DNA from: Patescibacteria group bacterium
Lineage (GTDB): Bacteria; Patescibacteriota; Patescibacteriia; 2-12-FULL-60-25
NCBI GenBank assembly: GCA_028715505.1
Contig: JAQURS010000002.1
Span: 1 to 38,657 of the forward strand
Reading direction: 5' to 3'
DNA: 38,657 nucleotides
Shown: piece after piece, positions 11,154 to 32,022 of the stretch
How positions within the stretch are numbered: position 1 is the stretch's first letter
Layout: each line of letters opens with the position of its first letter
Position numbers and translations under genes: made by a program
The notes under the pieces: model-generated
Databases searched by the model: none
What the model was told of the DNA's origin: nothing
The model's input: the letters and a program-made list of their open reading frames with translations, nothing else

Positions 11154-11902
11154 TTCCTTGGTTCGAGCTGCACATCATCACGATCGGTCCGATTACCATC
11201 CAGGTTTGGGGCACGCTGGTTGCCCTCGGGTTTTTAATGGCGACTTGGGTAGCCGCTCGCCGAGCCAAAAAACAGGGGATTGACCCCATTCATCTTTGGA
11301 ACATGGCGCCGTGGATTTTGATCGCGGCTTTTGTGGTAGCCCGTTTGTTCCATGTCTTTTTTTACGATCTGGCGTGGTTCATGGCTCATCCGTCCGACAT
11401 TATCAATCCTTCGGTGCCCGGTTATTCGATGATGGGTGGCGTGATCGGAGGCGTCGTAGCTGGACTAATTTATATCTGGCGCAAGAAACTCCAGCTCTGG
11501 GTTATGGCTGACCTCGTGGCTTACGCCTTGCCGCTCGGCACGGCCATCGGACGTATTGGCTGCTTTCTGATCCACGACCATCCGGGGACATTGACCCATT
11601 TTATATTGGGCGTTAAATATCCTGACGGCGTCCGGCATGACCATGGCCTCTATCTTTCATTGCTAGGTTGGGGCATGTTCATCTTGTTTTATATATTGGG
11701 ACGCAAGAAGAGACCGCCAGGTTATTTTGTCGGGCTTTGGCTGGTTATAGACGGTACGGTCAGGTTCATTTTGGATTTTTACAGGATAGGCGATAAGCGT
11801 TACGCTGGATTGACTCCCACCCAATGGCTGCTTATCCTCACGGTCTCGGCTGGCGTGGTATTATTAACCCGCGTTTATAAAAAATATGGACCAAGCAGAT
11901 AA
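11150..11902 (+). CDS. lgt: Prolipoprotein diacylglyceryl transferase
   Basis: Transfers diacylglycerol from phosphatidylglycerol to the lipobox cysteine of prolipoproteins, at the outer face of the cytoplasmic membrane. The 250-residue polytopic protein begins 'ELHIITIGPITIQVWGTLVALGFL' and has the family loop 'AIGRIGCFLIHDHPG' with the key Arg (classical form GR.GNF.N.E..G), 'DLVAYALPLGTAIGRIG' before it and a late 'YAGLTPTQWLLILTV' helix. Length is normal for the family. The ATG overlaps the preceding stop by 4 bp, and the 3' end overlaps the next gene by 17 bp, so translation of the series is probably coupled. Confidence 0.93.
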   Translation: MIPWFELHIITIGPITIQVWGTLVALGFLMATWVAARRAKKQGIDPIHLWNMAPWILIAAFVVARLFHVFFYDLAWFMAHPSDIINPSVPGYSMMGGVIGGVVAGLIYIWRKKLQLWVMADLVAYALPLGTAIGRIGCFLIHDHPGTLTHFILGVKYPDGVRHDHGLYLSLLGWGMFILFYILGRKKRPPGYFVGLWLVIDGTVRFILDFYRIGDKRYAGLTPTQWLLILTVSAGVVLLTRVYKKYGPSR

Positions 11903-12545
11903 AACAAGACAGATTTTTTTGATCGGCTCGATTATCCTCGGCGTTTTGATCGTGGGAGGATTGGTTTGGGCCATCGCCATGGGGCCAAGCGGAGGGAATA
12001 ATATTGATTCGAACATTGTTTTTAACGATGATTCCAATCCGGCCCAAGGCCCGGCCGACGCTAAGGTCACGGTCAGGATCTTTAGCGATTTCCAATGTCC
12101 GGCTTGCAAAATCGCAGACCCGATCGTCAAACAAGTCATGCAGGACTACGCGAGCAAAGTCCGTTTCGTTTGGAACGATCTTCCTCTGACTTCGCTGCAT
12201 CCGAACTCCAAGGTGGCCGCCATAGCCGGGAGATGCGCCCAAGAACAGGATAAATTCTGGGAATACGCGTCTAAGCTCTATGAAACGCAAGACAATTGGA
12301 TTGGCCTCACGTCTCCAAATGATTACTTCGCGAATTTAGCCGCCCAGCTTGGCCTCCAGAGGGAAAGGTTTGTTTCCTGTCTTGGCGGTCAGACTCCTGT
12401 CATGAAAGTGGCCCAGGATGTGCAGGAAGCCGCTTCGTTCGGCCTCGAAGCGACCCCAACTTTTTTCGTGAACCGACAAAAGTATGAAGGAGTCATTGAC
12501 CTGCAGACTTGGCATCAGATTATCGACGCGGCTTTGGTCAAATAA
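11886..12545 (+). CDS. Membrane-anchored DsbA-like thioredoxin (CPAC)
   Basis: A 219-residue thiol-disulfide oxidoreductase. It has an N-terminal signal anchor (about 11-33), a short linker, then a DsbA-type thioredoxin fold with active site C71-P-A-C74 in 'FSDFQCPACK', a helical insertion with two further Cys ('GRCAQEQDKFWEY' and 'FVSCLGG') and the cis-proline loop 'EATPTFFVN'. The domain should face outside the membrane and introduce or shuffle disulfides. It begins inside the end of lgt (17-bp overlap) and is the last gene of that operon. The 100 bp that follow lead to a second, related protein. The family assignment is firm; the redox direction is not visible. Confidence 0.9.
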   Translation: MDQADKTRQIFLIGSIILGVLIVGGLVWAIAMGPSGGNNIDSNIVFNDDSNPAQGPADAKVTVRIFSDFQCPACKIADPIVKQVMQDYASKVRFVWNDLPLTSLHPNSKVAAIAGRCAQEQDKFWEYASKLYETQDNWIGLTSPNDYFANLAAQLGLQRERFVSCLGGQTPVMKVAQDVQEAASFGLEATPTFFVNRQKYEGVIDLQTWHQIIDAALVK

Positions 12546-12613
12546 TTGAGTTGACAATTAGCTCCGCGACCCCGAAAATATAGCTTCGATGACAGTTTAA
12601 GCTGTTGATAATT

Positions 12614-12622
12614 TTATCCACA
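12614..12622 (+). other. Perfect DnaA box
   Basis: TTATCCACA, the classic consensus, in the 100-bp gap before the second DsbA-like gene. A single box could occur by chance. Another perfect box is at 38306-38314. Confidence 0.35.
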
Positions 12623-12645
12623 ACTAATTTTTCTTCAATTGTTCT

Positions 12646-13416
12646 ATGGAACATTCAGAACAGACCAGCGATTCCGGAAACTTTTGGCAGGGCAATCCTA
12701 AGACGATGTTCGCCTTGGGCCTTGTCACCGGCGTAGCCGTCATGTCCGTAATTGCCTTGGTTTTCGTGCTTGATTTCTTGTTTTCCGGCAAGACGGCCGG
12801 AGCCATGGCTGTAAACAATCAGCAGCAGGCCCAACAAGTCGCGCAGCAACCTACGGACCAGCAACCGACCGACCAACAGCCCACCCAGCCTTCGCAACCT
12901 CCCAAGGCCGTGGATGACAAGGATCATATTTGGGGCAATAAGAATGCCAAGGTTACTTTGATCGAATATTCTGATTTCGAATGCCCCTATTGCGCCCGCC
13001 ATTACGATACTATCAAACAGATCCAGCAAGCTTATCCTAACGATGTGCGTATCGTTTTCCGCCATTTTCCGCTCTCTTTCCATGCTAACGCCCAAAAGGC
13101 GGCTGAAGCTTCGGAATGTGCCGGTGCCCAGGGCAAATTTTGGGAGATGCATGACAAGATTTTTGAGGCCAACAAAGCCGCCAAGATGGGCGTAGACCAA
13201 TGGAAACAGGATGCCAAAGATCTAAAGTTGGACACCGCCAAATTCAATAAATGTTTGGATGGTGGCGAGATGGCTAGTGTGATTTCAGCCGATCAAACCG
13301 AGGCTTCCAACGCGGGCGTGAGTGGCACCCCGGCCACTTTCGTGAACGGCGAGCTGATCGAAGGCGCCCTGCCCTTCGCTTCCTTCCAGGCCAAGATCGA
13401 CGCCGCGCTTAAGTAA
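12646..13416 (+). CDS. Membrane-anchored DsbA-like thioredoxin (CPYC)
   Basis: A 256-residue relative of the preceding gene. One signal-anchor helix (about 23-46), then a low-complexity Gln/Pro/Thr linker (about 58-87, repeats of 'QQPTD'), then the thioredoxin fold with C113-P-Y-C116 in 'YSDFECPYCARHY', conserved 'FRHFPLSFHANAQKAAEASECAGAQGKFW', and cis-Pro loop 'GTPATFVNGELIEGA'. This is the common bacterial extracytoplasmic DsbA/BdbD-like arrangement. It is separated from the first by 100 bp and has an intrinsic terminator right after the stop. I could not place its promoter confidently, though a TTGACA is at 12551-12556. Two such proteins close together suggest a substantial need for disulfide formation outside the membrane. 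Confidence 0.92.
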   Translation: MEHSEQTSDSGNFWQGNPKTMFALGLVTGVAVMSVIALVFVLDFLFSGKTAGAMAVNNQQQAQQVAQQPTDQQPTDQQPTQPSQPPKAVDDKDHIWGNKNAKVTLIEYSDFECPYCARHYDTIKQIQQAYPNDVRIVFRHFPLSFHANAQKAAEASECAGAQGKFWEMHDKIFEANKAAKMGVDQWKQDAKDLKLDTAKFNKCLDGGEMASVISADQTEASNAGVSGTPATFVNGELIEGALPFASFQAKIDAALK

Positions 13417-23540: not shown

Positions 23541-23564
23541 TAAAAAAAGCCGGCTGGGGCCGGT
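23541..23564 (-). terminator. Terminator of cysteine-rich paralog 1
   Basis: Minus strand: CCGGC-CCCA-GCCGG stem-loop followed by seven T. It overlaps the end of the gene and faces the transporter gene. Confidence 0.8.
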
Positions 23565-24262
23565 TAGAGATGAGTGGGAGGAGACCCATTAGGCTGCTGG
23601 CATCGCGGACATCGCTCGCATTCTAGTCCATTGAGCGTAAATCGCATCAGGGGAGTTGAAAAGTCGAAAATTGCTCCACACCTGCAAATGCCTAGTCGCC
23701 CGTCCGTTCCGTTAAGGCAAAGTTCGTCTTCCTTAACCGTCTGGAAACCGCAGCTGGCGCCTATGACGCATGTCTTAGGTTTGGGCAGGGTCGGAGACCA
23801 GCATTCCTCGCGTGAGAGCTTATCCAGGATGTATTCCCCCATAAGGAATTCCTCTTTAAGGAAGACCAGACCCTTGGAGCAGACGTAGTCCAAACCATGC
23901 CTTGAATCATGACAAATCTGCCGGTCTAAGCGGCACTCGCACGTGCTGCCGTCAAAGCAGCTAGTCATCGTCGGATCGGGCTTGTTGCCAACGATCGTCA
24001 TGTCGCGCAATCTTACGACGTGTTTTTTTGCCATTGGATCCGGCTCTGGTTCTGGTTCCGGTGCCAGACTTGTGGCTGGCGAGGCGGATGCTTCACAAGT
24101 CGCTGAGCTCATTGGGGGTGGCGGAATTGAGGCTGTCTCGACAGGAAGCAGTATGAACTTGATGATCAGCAAGTCGATTGCCAAGAAAACGGCGGAGAGG
24201 GTTACGGCAAGGATTACGCAATATGAGGCCACCCTAGGTAGGTCAATTTTTTGAGTTGTCAT
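23564..24262 (-). CDS. Membrane-anchored cysteine-rich protein, paralog 1
   Basis: One of three tandem relatives. The 232-residue protein has one N-terminal transmembrane helix (about 12-37), a Pro/Glu/Ala/Ser-rich stalk (about 38-75, with repeated 'PEPEPEPDP'), and a C-terminal domain with 14 cysteines. Twelve of these fit a pattern shared with the other two: C-x5-C-x-C-x6-C ('CFDGSTCECRLDRQIC'), then a single Cys, later a single Cys, C-x5-C ('CVIGASC'), x10, C, about 10, C-x-C, followed by 'GAIFDFSTP', and a last Cys. The domain should be extracellular and disulfide-bonded. The ATG at 24262 follows AGGAGGAAAGCACC, a strong ribosome binding site. It differs from the others most ('REECWSP' instead of 'YRNxCRPxG'). 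No known family was recognised. Confidence 0.8.
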   Translation of the reverse strand: MTTQKIDLPRVASYCVILAVTLSAVFLAIDLLIIKFILLPVETASIPPPPMSSATCEASASPATSLAPEPEPEPDPMAKKHVVRLRDMTIVGNKPDPTMTSCFDGSTCECRLDRQICHDSRHGLDYVCSKGLVFLKEEFLMGEYILDKLSREECWSPTLPKPKTCVIGASCGFQTVKEDELCLNGTDGRLGICRCGAIFDFSTPLMRFTLNGLECERCPRCQQPNGSPPTHL

Positions 24263-24290
24263 GGTGCTTTCCTCCTCTGAAGTACAAGTG

Positions 24291-24320
24291 ATGATAGTCA
24301 CGGATTTTCCATTCTGTCAA
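24291..24320 (-). promoter_or_regulatory. Promoter of cysteine-rich paralog 1
   Basis: Minus strand: TTGACA (24320-24315), 18-bp spacer, TATCAT (24296-24291). Confidence 0.8.
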
Positions 24321-24333
24321 TCGGAGGGGGTAA

Positions 24334-24361
24334 ACAAAAAAGCCTCGGTGTGGACCAAGGC
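24334..24361 (-). terminator. Terminator of cysteine-rich paralog 2
   Basis: Minus strand: GCCTTGG/CCGAGGC stem, loop TCCACA, then TTTTTTGTTT. It shares the AAGCCTCGG string (plus strand) with the terminator of paralog 3. Confidence 0.85.
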
Positions 24362-24362
24362 A

Positions 24363-25022
24363 TCAGAGATGAATAGAGGGATCTGGGGGAGGCTCACGGG
24401 TTCTTTCCATTAGACACTGGATTTGGTCAGCGTCTTTTCGCAAGTCGGGTGTAGAGAAGTTGAACACCATGCCACAGTGGCAGATGGAGAGCTGCTCGTG
24501 TTCGGCCATGCAGCGTTCGCCTTCTTTGATCCCTTGCGGCGCGCATATCTCGCCAAATCGACAGGATTTGAGCACAGGTTCACCTGGCGGGCGACAGGCG
24601 TTGCGGTAGAGCGTGTCTCCAAAGAGATCGTACTCTTCGCTTGTCACCCATAAGCCGTGCGAGCATACGAAGCCCTTGGTGGCATTCTGGTCTCCAGAGC
24701 TTATGCTCATGATGCAAGGAACGCCATTTTCCCAGCAATGGCATGTTTTACTTTCTGAACAATCCGTTAACACGGGGACTTGATAGTGCTTACCCTTGAT
24801 GATGGTATCACGGAATATGGGCGTAGCTTCCGTCTCCTCGGACGAAGGGACAGGTTCAGGCGGCTGGTCAACGCGTGACGAGGCAGATTGTGACGCGACA
24901 GGGCAGGGCGTCTCGAGCGCTTTGTTAGTTTTGATTTGGTCTGCCACAATAGCGGTGATAATAGCCACGACCAAACCGGCCGCAATGAACAGCCAGGGGT
25001 TGCTCTTGTGCTCGTTTGTCAC
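24363..25022 (-). CDS. Membrane-anchored cysteine-rich protein, paralog 2
   Basis: Second of the tandem family. The 219-residue protein has a transmembrane helix (about 9-28, 'PWLFIAAGLVVAIITAIVA'), a Ser/Pro/Glu stalk (about 38-68), and a C-terminal domain with 12 cysteines in the shared spacing: C-x5-C-x-C-x6-C ('CSESKTCHCWENGVPC'), 'VCSHGLW', 'YRNACRPPGEPVLKSC', C-x5-C ('CRFGEIC'), x10, C, x9, C-x-C, 'GMVFNFSTPDLR', and a final Cys. The start is a GTG at 25022, preceded by AAAGGAG nine nt upstream, and agrees with the position of the transmembrane helix. The promoter and terminator are clear. The region 'VCSxGLVxxxE..L.....YRN.CRP.G.P.LK.C' is almost the same in paralog 3. Confidence 0.85.
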   Translation of the reverse strand: MTNEHKSNPWLFIAAGLVVAIITAIVADQIKTNKALETPCPVASQSASSRVDQPPEPVPSSEETEATPIFRDTIIKGKHYQVPVLTDCSESKTCHCWENGVPCIMSISSGDQNATKGFVCSHGLWVTSEEYDLFGDTLYRNACRPPGEPVLKSCRFGEICAPQGIKEGERCMAEHEQLSICHCGMVFNFSTPDLRKDADQIQCLMERTREPPPDPSIHL

Positions 25023-25071
25023 GTTTTGGCACTCCTTTTGTTGTCAAAGTCGTCAAAACCGCGCGAAAGTG

Positions 25072-25100
25072 ATGGTATGAACGATAGGTCTCTTTGTCAA
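25072..25100 (-). promoter_or_regulatory. Promoter of cysteine-rich paralog 2
   Basis: Minus strand: TTGACA (25100-25095), 17-bp spacer, TACCAT (25077-25072). Confidence 0.8.
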
Positions 25101-25126
25101 GAGGATGTGCAAATTTAGATTAAATA

Positions 25127-25150
25127 AAATAAGCCTCGGCGAGGGCCTTG
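25127..25150 (-). terminator. Terminator of cysteine-rich paralog 3
   Basis: Minus strand: AGCC/GGCT outer arms with inner GG/CC pairs, then TTATTTTATTT. Confidence 0.65.
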
Positions 25151-25152
25151 GC

Positions 25153-25764
25153 TCACAAGAAGATCGTGCAGGATTCGTTCGGATTCGGATACAGCTTATC
25201 GCACGCCTCGTCGTCTTCCAGCTTCATTCTAATCTCTGGCGTTGAAAAGTCGACGATTTTTCCGCAGTGGCAGAGCGAGATCCATCCTTTATCCAGGCAA
25301 GCCTGGCCTTCTCTGAGGTTTTGGGATGGGCACGACTCTCCGGTTTTGCATATTTTGAGCGCCGGCATGCCGCGCGGACGACAGACGTTGCGGTAGATCA
25401 TGCTGTCGTACAGATGTTGTTCAGCCGTGGTCATGACAACGCCATGGGAACAGACGAGGTTTTCTCCGAGCTTCGAATCGAAGCAGGTTTTTCCGTGCTC
25501 ATCACAGCCGCACGTAGGACCTTGAAAACAATTGCTTGGCGCGGCTGAAGCGGACGGGGAAGCGGGAATGGCGGTCGCACTCAAGTTGAGTTCAGCTTGA
25601 GGTTTCGTGGATGCCGAGGAGGACGGTTCTATCTTTTGGATTGCCAAAACCGGAGCCGGCGCGTTCAGCGACGAGTAGATCGAGTTTGCGACGCAGAAGA
25701 AGAAAAAGTAAACGCAAAACAGGATAAAGGCTTGCTTGGCGAACCTGGTGATTCGAATGAACAT
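25153..25764 (-). CDS. Membrane-anchored cysteine-rich protein, paralog 3
   Basis: Third of the tandem family, 203 residues: a basic N-terminus, a very hydrophobic helix (about 11-30, 'AFILFCVYFFFFCVANSIYSS'), an Ala/Pro/Ser stalk (about 44-75), and the cysteine-rich domain: C-x5-C-x-C-x6-C ('CFQGPTCGCDEHGKTC'), 'VCSHGVV', 'YRNVCRPRGMPALKIC', C-x5-C ('CKTGESC'), x10, C, x8, C-x-C, 'GKIVDFSTPEIR', and late Cys. The ATG at 25764 follows AAAGGAGC by a normal spacing. The helix itself has two Cys that the others lack. All three genes are on the same strand but each has its own promoter and terminator, so they are not one operon. Confidence 0.85.
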   Translation of the reverse strand: MFIRITRFAKQAFILFCVYFFFFCVANSIYSSLNAPAPVLAIQKIEPSSSASTKPQAELNLSATAIPASPSASAAPSNCFQGPTCGCDEHGKTCFDSKLGENLVCSHGVVMTTAEQHLYDSMIYRNVCRPRGMPALKICKTGESCPSQNLREGQACLDKGWISLCHCGKIVDFSTPEIRMKLEDDEACDKLYPNPNESCTIFL

Positions 25765-25803: not shown

Positions 25804-25831
25804 AGCCTATCAAAAAAGGCTTCATTGTCAA
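25804..25831 (-). promoter_or_regulatory. Promoter of cysteine-rich paralog 3
   Basis: Minus strand: TTGACA (25831-25826), 16-bp spacer ending in TGA, TAGGCT (25809-25804). Confidence 0.8.
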
Positions 25832-25943
25832 TCCTTTTAATATAAATAGTGGTATTGAGTGGGGAATAATAGTATCCACATTAGAACAAAAAAAGAACAA
25901 TATTTTGGCTAAGATTAGAGTTAAATCAGCCTTTCTTTAAGGA

Positions 25944-28856: not shown

Positions 28857-29252
28857 ATGTTGCAAGGCACGGGGGCGCTCGCGCGATTGCTGTTCGTGGA
28901 TTTGATCGGCAGCGTGGCTTGGTTTCCGATTTGGTGGTACACGACGGGCATTAAACGGATGATCCAGTGGTGCCTGGATGGTTTGAATTACCGCGTGCGC
29001 CAATACGCATTCGCGGTTTGGATTAAGAATTTTTTCGTGCCCATGTACGGGCAATACGACTGGCAGGGCCGGTTGATCAGCGTTTTCATGCGAACGGTCG
29101 TGCTGATCGGGCGGGCAATCGCTTTGGTAGCCGAGGCTCTGGCTTACGTCTTTTTGGTTTTTGTTTGGGCCTTGCTTCCGCCTTTGGCATTCATCCTGGC
29201 TTTGCAAAACATTATGTCCGGGGCTTTTATGTCCCAGGTACCCAGGCCTTGA
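28857..29252 (+). CDS. Small membrane protein coupled to the Clp-like gene
   Basis: Unrecognised 131-residue membrane protein. Hydrophobic segments are about residues 7-30 ('ALARLLFVDLIGSVAWFPIWWY'-type) and about 83-118 ('VVLIGRAIALVAEALAYVFLVFVWALLPPLAFILAL'), with an amphipathic, aromatic-rich middle ('NFFVPMYGQYDWQGRLISVFMR'). Its stop codon lies 1 nt before the ATG of the membrane-tethered Clp-like gene, so they are cotranscribed and perhaps a complex. The ATG at 28857 was chosen because the -10 box lies 8 nt before it; the frame opens earlier (28839). Confidence 0.75.
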   Translation: MLQGTGALARLLFVDLIGSVAWFPIWWYTTGIKRMIQWCLDGLNYRVRQYAFAVWIKNFFVPMYGQYDWQGRLISVFMRTVVLIGRAIALVAEALAYVFLVFVWALLPPLAFILALQNIMSGAFMSQVPRP

Positions 29253-29253
29253 T

Positions 29254-32022
29254 ATGAGCGGCGAGAAGATAAACGTGCCAAAAGTTCCTGAAGCCATCGT
29301 TTGTTCGGTTTGCAACGGCGATCCGAGGACTTCGCGCAATTGCAAGCAATGCGGCGGGGCTGGCATCGGCATCCCGAGCGAGGAAGGATTTTTAGTTTGG
29401 TCTACCGAAGTCACTGAGTTTACGAGCGCCGTCAGGAAATTGCGGATCAAAGTCAACGCCATCCTGCACATCGCTATCATGGCCGTGATTGTGCTGTGCT
29501 TGATTGTTTTTTTCGCGAACGTCATTCCTAATTTCACCATCGAAGAAGTTAAAACTCTCGCTTTTTGGACGGCTGGCCATTGGTTCGTGACGATTTTTTA
29601 CGTGGCCATCGTTTTGGGTGCGTATTTCATTTTCAGGATGAGCGAGTTCACGGCGCCTGCTAAAGACCTTCCACACTGGCTAAATGTCTCACGTCCTAAA
29701 ACGTACAATGCGTCCTCAGAACGTCCTGGCGGAAAGGACGATAAAGGACGCATTGAGGACTCGAAAGGACGTTTTTCAGTTGATGTCGCGCCATATTATT
29801 CGCCTATGGCCATGGATGTGGTTGAGTCGGCTTACAGGCTAGCCAAGGATACCGGCCGGGTGGAAGTTACGCCCGAAATACTTTTCGCGGCCGTTTTAGC
29901 TTGCCCGGAAGGCTCGCTATTCATGGTCAGGCTCGGCATGCCGTTCGAAAAAATCAAAGAGCCCTTGGTTAGGCTGATCACTAAAGGTTCGGCTGGCGCG
30001 CCGCCTATCGCGTTTTCGCGCGAAGCTAAGCGCGTGTTGGCCTCGGCTTTCGCCCTGGCGGATGAGACGCATCGCAAGCACGTGACGCCCATGGAAATCT
30101 TTTTACAGGCATTTGTCGAAAGTAAATCCTTGCAGGAATTATTGGACGGGTTGGGTTATCCCTTTAATCACGTCACGCACGTGGCCCAATGGGTTTTAGT
30201 CCAGTCCAAGATGCGTGAAGACCAGGAAAGATTCGTGCGGCTGGCCAGGTTAAAACCAAAATCCAACATGAACCGGTCCATGACGGCCAGACAAACGCCT
30301 TTGCTTGATCGGTTTAGCGAGGATCTGACTTTGTTGGCCCGTCAGGGTTATCTCGCGCCCATGATTGGCAACGACACCGTGATGGACGAGGTTTTGCGCG
30401 GTTTGGAAAGCGGGCAAAGGGGAGTCGTGTTGGTCGGCGAAACGGGAACGGGTAAAGCGGCCATTGTCGAACAGCTGGCGCGCCGCATGGTGGAAGAAGA
30501 CGTGCCGGAAATCCTATTTGATAAACGCTTAGTCTCCGTCAACATCGCGCAAGTCATCGCGGCTGGGGAACCGGGTTTGGCGGCCGAGCGGTTGGTGGAA
30601 ATGCTGAATGAAGTCGCTTTGTCTGGCAACATTGTGCTCGCGCTTTACGGCATCGAATCGCTAGTTGGCACTGCCAGCGGGCCCATGGATCTGGCTGAAG
30701 CTTTATCAAGTGAACTCGATAAAGGTTATTGCATGTTCGTGGCCACGACCACGCCCCAAGCTTGGACGCAATATCTCGAGAGGCGCAGTTTGGGTCAGAA
30801 ATTAGTCAAAGTCACGGTGCCCGTGCCGGACGCGGACCAAGTTATCCAAGTACTCATGGTCAAATCAGGCGCCATCGAATATCAAAACAAGGTTTTTTTC
30901 TCGTACGCGGCTTTGGAAAAGGCGACTTTCCTGGGCATGCGGTATTTGCACGATGTGGCCCCGCCGCAAAGCGTGTTGAACGTGGTCCGTGAGGCAGCCG
31001 TGTCCGCTCACAATACCAGGGGAGACCAGACGTTCGTGACGGCTGAGGATGTGGCCAAGATCGTGCATGATAAGACGAATATCCCTGTCGAAATGGTGAC
31101 TGAACAAGAATCGCAAAAGCTTTTGGATCTCGAATCGCGCATGCACGGCCGGGTTGTTGGCCAGGATGAGGCCGTGGTCGCCGTGGCCCGCGCCATCCGC
31201 CGCGCAAGAGCGGAGCTCCGGGAAGGCAAGCGACCGATCGCTAACTTTTTGTTTTTGGGACCGACTGGCGTTGGAAAGACGGAGTGCGCCAAAACATTGG
31301 GTCAGGAATATTTTGGCGACGAAAACGCCATGGTGCGTTTGGACATGTCCGAATATCAGGATAAATCGTCGGTCGCGCGCATGATCGGCGCCCCGGGCGA
31401 CGAGCGCGGCGGGCTTTTGACCGAAGCGGTGCGCAAAAAGCCGTTTACCATCGTCCTCTTGGATGAAATCGAAAAAGCGCATCCTGATATTTTGACGCTT
31501 TTCCTACAGGTCATGGACGACGGGCGCCTAACCGATGGTATTGGCCGCACGATTGATTTTACCAATACCATCGTGATCATGACTTCAAACGCGGGCACGC
31601 CTTACATTCAGGCGGCGGTGGCCGAAGGGGAGTCCATGGAAAAAATTAAAACGGCTTTACTTGAAAGGGAGTTGAAGGGCATTTTCCGTCCTGAGTTCCT
31701 CAATCGTTTCGACGGCATTATCGTCTTCAGACCCCTGACGCGCGACCAGGTTGTGCAAATCGCTTGGCTCATGATCAACCGGATTGGCAAACAGTTGGAG
31801 GGTAGAGGCATGAAGTTCCGCGCGGATGATATCGCCGTCGAAGCCTTGGCTGACGCCGGATTTGATCCGGCTTTTGGAGCCCGCCCGCTGCGCCGCGTCA
31901 TCCAGGACAGGATCGAGAATCAATTGGCCGATTTATTGCTCAAAAACGAAGCCGTTCGCCGCGACACGGTAGCTTTGCAGTCGGATGGCACCCTGCACGT
32001 GGAAAAAGCCCCGGCCTTGTGA
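29254..32022 (+). CDS. Membrane-tethered Clp-type AAA+ ATPase with zinc ribbon
   Basis: A 922-residue protein of the ClpA/B/C class with an unusual front end. Order: a four-Cys zinc ribbon (C17, C20, C30, C33; DnaJ-like CxxCxG), two transmembrane helices (about 69-93 and 104-127), a linker (146-173) encoded by a palindromic repeat, a Clp-N double repeat (about 180-330), AAA D1 (about 370-600), AAA D2 (about 630-820), and a C-terminal D2-small domain. D2 is intact: Walker A 'GPTGVGKT' (669-676), Walker B 'LLDEIE' (735-740), sensor 'MTSNAG'. D1 looks dead: Walker A ends 'GTGKAA' (Thr replaced by Ala402) and the Walker B site reads 'NIVLALYGIESL', without the acidic pair. The D2 loop where ClpA/ClpC carry the ClpP-binding IGL/IGF tripeptide is short and lacks it. 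So it is likely a membrane-bound unfoldase without ClpP. Confidence 0.9.
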   Translation: MSGEKINVPKVPEAIVCSVCNGDPRTSRNCKQCGGAGIGIPSEEGFLVWSTEVTEFTSAVRKLRIKVNAILHIAIMAVIVLCLIVFFANVIPNFTIEEVKTLAFWTAGHWFVTIFYVAIVLGAYFIFRMSEFTAPAKDLPHWLNVSRPKTYNASSERPGGKDDKGRIEDSKGRFSVDVAPYYSPMAMDVVESAYRLAKDTGRVEVTPEILFAAVLACPEGSLFMVRLGMPFEKIKEPLVRLITKGSAGAPPIAFSREAKRVLASAFALADETHRKHVTPMEIFLQAFVESKSLQELLDGLGYPFNHVTHVAQWVLVQSKMREDQERFVRLARLKPKSNMNRSMTARQTPLLDRFSEDLTLLARQGYLAPMIGNDTVMDEVLRGLESGQRGVVLVGETGTGKAAIVEQLARRMVEEDVPEILFDKRLVSVNIAQVIAAGEPGLAAERLVEMLNEVALSGNIVLALYGIESLVGTASGPMDLAEALSSELDKGYCMFVATTTPQAWTQYLERRSLGQKLVKVTVPVPDADQVIQVLMVKSGAIEYQNKVFFSYAALEKATFLGMRYLHDVAPPQSVLNVVREAAVSAHNTRGDQTFVTAEDVAKIVHDKTNIPVEMVTEQESQKLLDLESRMHGRVVGQDEAVVAVARAIRRARAELREGKRPIANFLFLGPTGVGKTECAKTLGQEYFGDENAMVRLDMSEYQDKSSVARMIGAPGDERGGLLTEAVRKKPFTIVLLDEIEKAHPDILTLFLQVMDDGRLTDGIGRTIDFTNTIVIMTSNAGTPYIQAAVAEGESMEKIKTALLERELKGIFRPEFLNRFDGIIVFRPLTRDQVVQIAWLMINRIGKQLEGRGMKFRADDIAVEALADAGFDPAFGARPLRRVIQDRIENQLADLLLKNEAVRRDTVALQSDGTLHVEKAPAL
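29691..29772. repeat. Palindromic GTCCT/AGGAC element inserted in frame in the Clp-like gene
   Basis: Nested inverted repeats: ACGTCCT (29691-29697) with AGGACGT (29766-29772); AATGCGTCCT (29707-29716) with AGGACGCATT (29745-29754), a perfect 10-bp pair; and an inner ACGTCCT/AGGACG pair around a 7-nt loop. The start (ACGTCCTAAAACGTACAA) is repeated at 35511-35529 in the recR-ybaB gap. It codes for residues 146-173 of the Clp-like protein. Confidence 0.85.

Follow-up and report, generated by a model that had tools for sequence, protein, structure and literature searches.

Three paralogous genes on the minus strand of a Candidatus Uhrbacteria genome, with an Nramp transporter gene on one side and mraZ on the other, appear to encode a genus-restricted family of membrane-anchored surface proteins with two-module, cysteine-rich heads, whose genes turn over as units and whose products may serve to recognize, or attach to, other cells in a variable way. 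We put the probability of this explanation as a whole at roughly 45%. The sequence-only reading had claimed three tandem paralogs at 23564-25764 of the window (the whole stretch of DNA analyzed, 38,657 nucleotides), and the three open reading frames are indeed found there on the minus strand. A search of its own genome with paralog 3 retrieves only the other two (E = 2e-26 and 6e-17), and paralogs 2 and 3 align with paralog 1 over the whole length at 30-32%; judged by these comparisons, the kinship of the three is far beyond chance.

The host genome (1.07 Mb in 28 contigs, 97% complete) has a MraZ whose relatives belong to Candidatus Uhrbacteria and Patescibacteria, and the array is flanked by uvrC-orf87-Nramp on one side and mraZ-mraW-ftsL on the other. 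Paralog 1 most likely starts at the ATG at 24262, which has AGAGGAGG upstream, rather than using the longer frame from the GTG at 24301; Shine-Dalgarno sites are also present at paralog 2 (GTG 25022) and paralog 3 (ATG 25764). For each pair of paralogs, pS exceeds pN in the cysteine domain, pN being roughly half as large, which is evidence that the annotated frame is coding. Elsewhere in the window, a Clp/AAA ATPase gene (29161-32022) is conserved beside mraZ-mraW-ftsL in two other species (G002 and G004); its product appears to have a CxxC-type zinc motif and membrane segments in the N-terminal part, which would make it an unusual, membrane-bound Clp protein.

Table 1. Mapped features of the cysteine-rich gene array, in window coordinates
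Feature	Position	Strand	Remarks
Paralog 1	23564..24262	-	232 aa; N-terminal helix, Pro/Glu-rich stalk, 12-Cys domain, C-terminal CxxC
Paralog 1 N-half six-Cys module, C102-C154	23801..23959	-	Cys registers, module profile, AlphaFold
Paralog 1 C-half six-Cys module, C165-C215	23618..23770	-	Cys registers, module profile, AlphaFold
Paralog 1 promoter-like site, TTGACA-18-TATCAT	24291..24320	-	match 11/12
Paralog 1 terminator	23550..23563	-	abuts stop codon
Paralog 2	24363..25022	-	219 aa; GTG start; anchor conserved in sister species G002
Paralog 2 N-half module, C88-C143	24594..24761	-	Cys registers, module profile
Paralog 2 C-half module, C154-C203	24414..24563	-	Cys registers, module profile
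Paralog 2 stretch similar to G002 DNA	24876..25047	-	75%; 5' leader, anchor, stalk start
Paralog 2 promoter-like site, TTGACA-17-TACCAT	25072..25100	-	match 10/12
Paralog 2 terminator	24342..24361	-	abuts stop codon
Paralog 3	25153..25764	-	203 aa; AlphaFold pLDDT about 90 over Cys domain
Paralog 3 N-half module, C79-C128	25381..25530	-	Cys registers, AlphaFold
Paralog 3 C-half module, C139-C188	25201..25350	-	Cys registers, AlphaFold
Paralog 3 -35-like box inside GGATTGACA	25826..25831	-	common to G002, G004; G002/G004 similarity breakpoint
Paralog 3 terminator	25131..25152	-	homologous to paralog 2 terminator

Each paralog consists of a single N-terminal helix, a stalk rich in Pro, Ser and Glu, and a 12-cysteine head, and we regard the architecture of anchor, stalk and two-module head as very probable. 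Cysteine makes up 5.9-7.4% of the three proteins, as against 0-3.8% in the products of the other window genes. The 12 cysteines common to all three follow the spacing C-x5-C-x-C-x6-C-x10/16-C-x22/25-C-x10-C-x5-C-x10-C-x8/10-C-x-C-x19/20-C, and each paralog has one to three extra cysteines outside the helix. The layout of one helix, low-complexity stalk and 12-cysteine domain was thus described correctly in the sequence-only reading, as were the cysteine motifs, with the alignment showing C-x5-C-x-C-x6-C, VCS[HK]G, C-x5-C-x10-C, C-x-C-G and (F/V)(D/N)FSTP, and the string YRN.CRP.G.P.LK.C common to paralogs 2 and 3. All three proteins lack a classical signal peptide, a lipobox and a sortase motif, and by inspection their N-terminal helices are of the uncleaved type. 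The predicted topology is based on a positive-inside tendency, which paralog 3 shows clearly and paralog 2 only weakly; surface exposure is likewise predicted.

The 12-cysteine head, we found, is probably an internal duplication of a six-cysteine module, a feature absent from the earlier description. AlphaFold2 modeled the paralog 3 head with pLDDT of about 82-93 over residues 80-180, and a separate run on the isolated paralog 1 head reached pTM 0.70 with mean pLDDT 82, both runs being built on the same five sequences. Both models contain a strand-strand-strand-helix series twice, 60-68 residues apart: in paralog 3, E93-96, E101-106, E109-112 and H113-119 repeat as E155-158, E161-166, E169-172 and H176-182, and in the paralog 1 head, E17-20, E25-30, E33-36 and H37-42 repeat as E82-85, E91-95, E98-101 and H105-112. 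The models are compact, with cysteines in ordered registers, in line with the disulfide-rich fold that had been anticipated. The proposed duplication rests on these repeated elements, on the parallel cysteine registers of the N- and C-halves, and on a protein from another species of the genus (G003) that has one module and may bridge the two kinds of half: its sequence fits the N-halves with cysteines fixed (z 3.3-4.3), and its spacing, 5-8-10-2-20, is of the C-half type (5-10-8/10-1-19/20). Direct comparison of N-half with C-half is weak (hhalign P 0.026; cysteine-fixed z -0.4 to 3.9), so we rate the duplication as likely rather than proved.

Two differences between heads suggest how the cysteines pair. 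In the G002 homologue, Cys 1 and Cys 4 of the N-half are lost together, and Cys 3 of the N-half has no counterpart in the C-half, which instead has an extra cysteine after Cys 5. From this joint loss, and from the exchange of Cys 3 for a cysteine beside Cys 5, the simplest reading is a predicted pairing of 1-4, 2-5 and (3 or extra)-6 in each module. The host genome encodes a VKOR frame that also holds a DsbA-like domain, together with further DsbA-like proteins, two of them within the window. These two, adjacent at 11886-13416, are membrane anchored. VKOR and DsbA-like proteins occur throughout the genus, showing only that extracytoplasmic disulfide formation is possible.

The three genes were claimed to have a promoter and terminator each. 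This held fully for the terminators, with hairpins starting 0-1 nt past the stop codon in all three genes, and for the promoters of paralogs 1 and 2; TTGACA boxes lie upstream of all three genes, and paralog 3 has a convincing -35 box only, lacking a good -10. The string reported as common to the terminators of paralogs 2 and 3 belongs to a 26-nt repeat of 77% identity that includes AAGCCTCGG, and sequence similar to the terminators also follows the G002 stop codon. The shared terminators and TTGACA boxes indicate that the duplicating unit comprised promoter, gene and terminator, bearing out the proposal that regulatory DNA was duplicated with the genes.

To place the family, we searched 57 relatives, 41 family or order genomes, 381 class genomes and 380 phylum genomes, finding homologues in three other species only, all of the same genus: G002, G004 and, with its single module, G003. 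Similar tandem arrays across CPR genomes had been expected, an expectation that failed: among the genomes searched, the tandem array occurs in the window genome only, with the G004 contig ending inside a family gene. The G003 protein (L030:1393-1908) scores E 1e-20 with a module profile that includes it and 5e-5 with one that excludes it. Across the 381 class genomes, matches of the module profile outside the genus (E 0.003-0.006) were mostly short frames or frames with stops and were judged chance; matches in G059 (E 0.014, within a DsbA-like protein) and G048 (E 7.5e-4) were restricted to the anchor/stalk part of the profile, and we did not count them. A peptide-pattern scan of genome contigs gave 64 candidate stretches and no confirmed member; it is insensitive to divergent relatives, the G002 and G004 contigs having been in the set yet missed. 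Viral contigs searched with the G003 protein gave no match, nor did tblastn of phages with paralog 3 or of plasmids with the G003 protein.

The claim of a new family without a known domain was upheld, all searches of Pfam, NCBIfam, PHROGs and PDB sequences falling below significance. Matches to TonB, CBM19, Toxin_16 and RING models were below cut-off, including the CBM19 carbohydrate-binding domain, matched by paralog 3 only (12.2 bits against a cut-off of 20.1, E 0.19), and PDB sequences gave no credible match. Fold searches reached E 0.7-1.3 at best in PDB, Z of at most 3.0 in VIA and E 0.04 at best in BFVD. We rejected the collagen XV/XVIII trimerisation domain, tail spikes and PAFC/bubble protein as fold matches, the common part being only a short strand meander. 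The generic spacing of knottins (inhibitor cystine knot), C3-7C3-8C0-7C1-4C4-13C, is matched in no protein examined; as to the knottin pairing 1-4, 2-5, 3-6, the cysteine loss and exchange described above give indirect hints. As a disulfide-rich domain, the two-copy module seems not to have been described before.

Comparison between species argues that turnover of the array at the Nramp-mraZ site is quite probable. G001 and G006 have no gene at the site, the mraZ upstream region coming immediately after the Nramp gene, and G005, G007 and G008 have other small ORFs beside mraZ, so that this stretch behaves as a variable spot in the genus. Small unnamed ORFs lie beside mraZ in other species at L009:7325-7819, L022:1800-3640, L024:3425-4447 and L025:2500-3503. 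The sister species G002 and G004 share 98.7% identity over 687 bp, from mraZ to GGATTGACA, which holds the first array gene's -35 box; beyond that box they differ, the leader and gene resembling paralog 2 in G002 and paralog 3 in G004. Neither uvrC nor the Nramp gene was found in the G004 assembly. A tree of mraZ/mraW resolves the nearest species poorly (support 48-63), leaving the order of gains and losses at the site unsettled, and an ectodomain tree is uninformative (support 48-52). Upstream of mraZ, a direct repeat GAAC-N7-GAAC (GAACAAAAAAAGAAC, window 25884-25898) is conserved in G001, G002 and G004, and is thus present also where the cysteine genes are absent; it has the form of an alphaproteobacterial LexA box.

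Within paralog 2, the anchor and head have diverged differently. DNA similarity of the array to G002 is confined to the stretch listed in Table 1 and ends before the cysteine domain. Between the two species, dN is 0.19 for the anchor, 0.92 for the stalk and 0.64 for the head, as compared with 0.20 for mraW and 0.06 for mraZ, suggesting that the anchor evolves like a neighboring gene and the head does not. Since dS in the head is saturated, fast substitution and recombinational replacement are inseparable and positive selection cannot be claimed; relaxed constraint or replacement could account for the fast divergence. The idea that these proteins serve diversification is nonetheless strengthened by site turnover and by the contrast between a conserved anchor and a diverging head. 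A gene set that varies between close relatives is also expected of components in contact with other cells.

These observations can be joined in one model, in which the N-terminal helix would hold the protein in the cytoplasmic membrane with its C-terminus outside (type II), the Pro/Ser/Glu-rich stalk would span the envelope, and the exposed head of two tandem six-cysteine strand-strand-strand-helix modules would be oxidized by the cell's own VKOR/DsbA system. Self-contained units of promoter, gene and terminator abutting the stop codon, at a fixed Nramp-mraZ site, would be gained, lost or exchanged between species, the head diverging much faster than the anchor. The proteins would then enable an episymbiont to recognize, or attach itself to, other cells or their glycans in a variable manner; we predict this role tentatively, at somewhat under even odds. 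An extension, in which units swap at the division-cluster site and a constant anchor carries a fast-evolving head that sets partner-cell recognition, making a surface-variation system, seems unlikely.

Other roles could be read from the same proteins. An odd number of cysteines outside the helix leaves one unpaired in each paralog, C56 and C40 in the stalks of paralogs 1 and 2 and C199 in paralog 3, and these leftover stalk or tail cysteines could link chains, as would suit a structural envelope protein, a disulfide cross-linked layer or spacer without a specific ligand in which the leftover cysteine makes dimers. Absence of the genes in close relatives and quickly diverging heads are unlike a needed layer, and we consider this role improbable. 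The same holds for a secreted-type role as a pacifastin-like protease inhibitor, which tandem duplication and fast loops would suit, or as protection from host enzymes, predators or phage. Pacifastin-like domains have been reported in CPR and myxobacterial genomes (PMC13388995), and they resemble the present module in being small, six-cysteine, beta-rich and poorly visible to sequence search in CPR proteins; the present module, unlike them, ends in a helix. The pacifastin spacing C-x9-20-C-x2-C-x-C-x5-10-C-x3/4-C is absent, strictly or by spacing, from all six proteins, pacifastin gave no Pfam match and no structure among the Foldseek and VIA matches listed (a search that can miss such a domain), and a membrane anchor would be unusual for an inhibitor. 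A metal-binding or redox function, in which CxC clusters bind Zn, Cu or Fe or relay thiol/disulfide exchange, is suggested by the CxC motifs and by genes abutting, and perhaps linked to, the Nramp gene. It is quite improbable: Nramp stays beside mraZ in G001 and G006 without the cysteine genes, the cysteine changes described above fit paired half-cystines, and the two modules contain no His-rich or CxxC redox motif. Least probable is that these are lineage-specific genes under little constraint and of no important function at a tolerant site by mraZ, as the different unnamed ORFs of other species and high head dN might suggest, given that cysteines, modules, -35 boxes and terminators are kept over large divergence and head pN is about half of pS.

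The kind of system proposed here, variable recognition or attachment through cysteine-rich surface proteins, is already known from Candidatus Peribacter riflensis, in which a cluster of 14 genes for cysteine-rich extracellular proteins varies between strains and attachment has been proposed (PMC4736985). The likeness extends to a CPR host, clustered genes, about 7% cysteine and a disulfide-forming protein in the genome (PMC4736985): the present genes are three adjacent ones with similar cysteine content, and they too vary between close species, as G002, G004 and the empty sites show. By contrast, the Peribacter proteins average 1,655 aa, mostly have signal peptides and are weakly similar to myxobacterial cysteine-rich repeats (PMC4736985), whereas the present ones, compared by description only, are 203-232 aa long with an N-terminal helix. 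What appears to be new is the family itself, along with its small anchored form and two-module head. The G003 protein shares a homologous six-cysteine module with the paralogs and differs in that it is probably a lipoprotein, contains Gly/Ser/Ala linkers as well as a second cysteine-rich region, and is encoded at another locus, next to glycan-synthesis genes. That second region recalls myxobacterial surface proteins, and glycosyltransferase and O-antigen-ligase-like genes adjoin; transfer from another phylum is possible.

The bacterium itself is tiny and probably symbiotic. Patescibacteria in culture have been described as obligate episymbionts that bind their hosts by mechanisms still largely unknown (PMC12206443). 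Outside Saccharibacteria, little is known of the way in which ultrasmall CPR bacteria select and keep hold of their partners, and a small, single-pass, disulfide-rich family that varies between sister species offers a compact, testable candidate contact surface.
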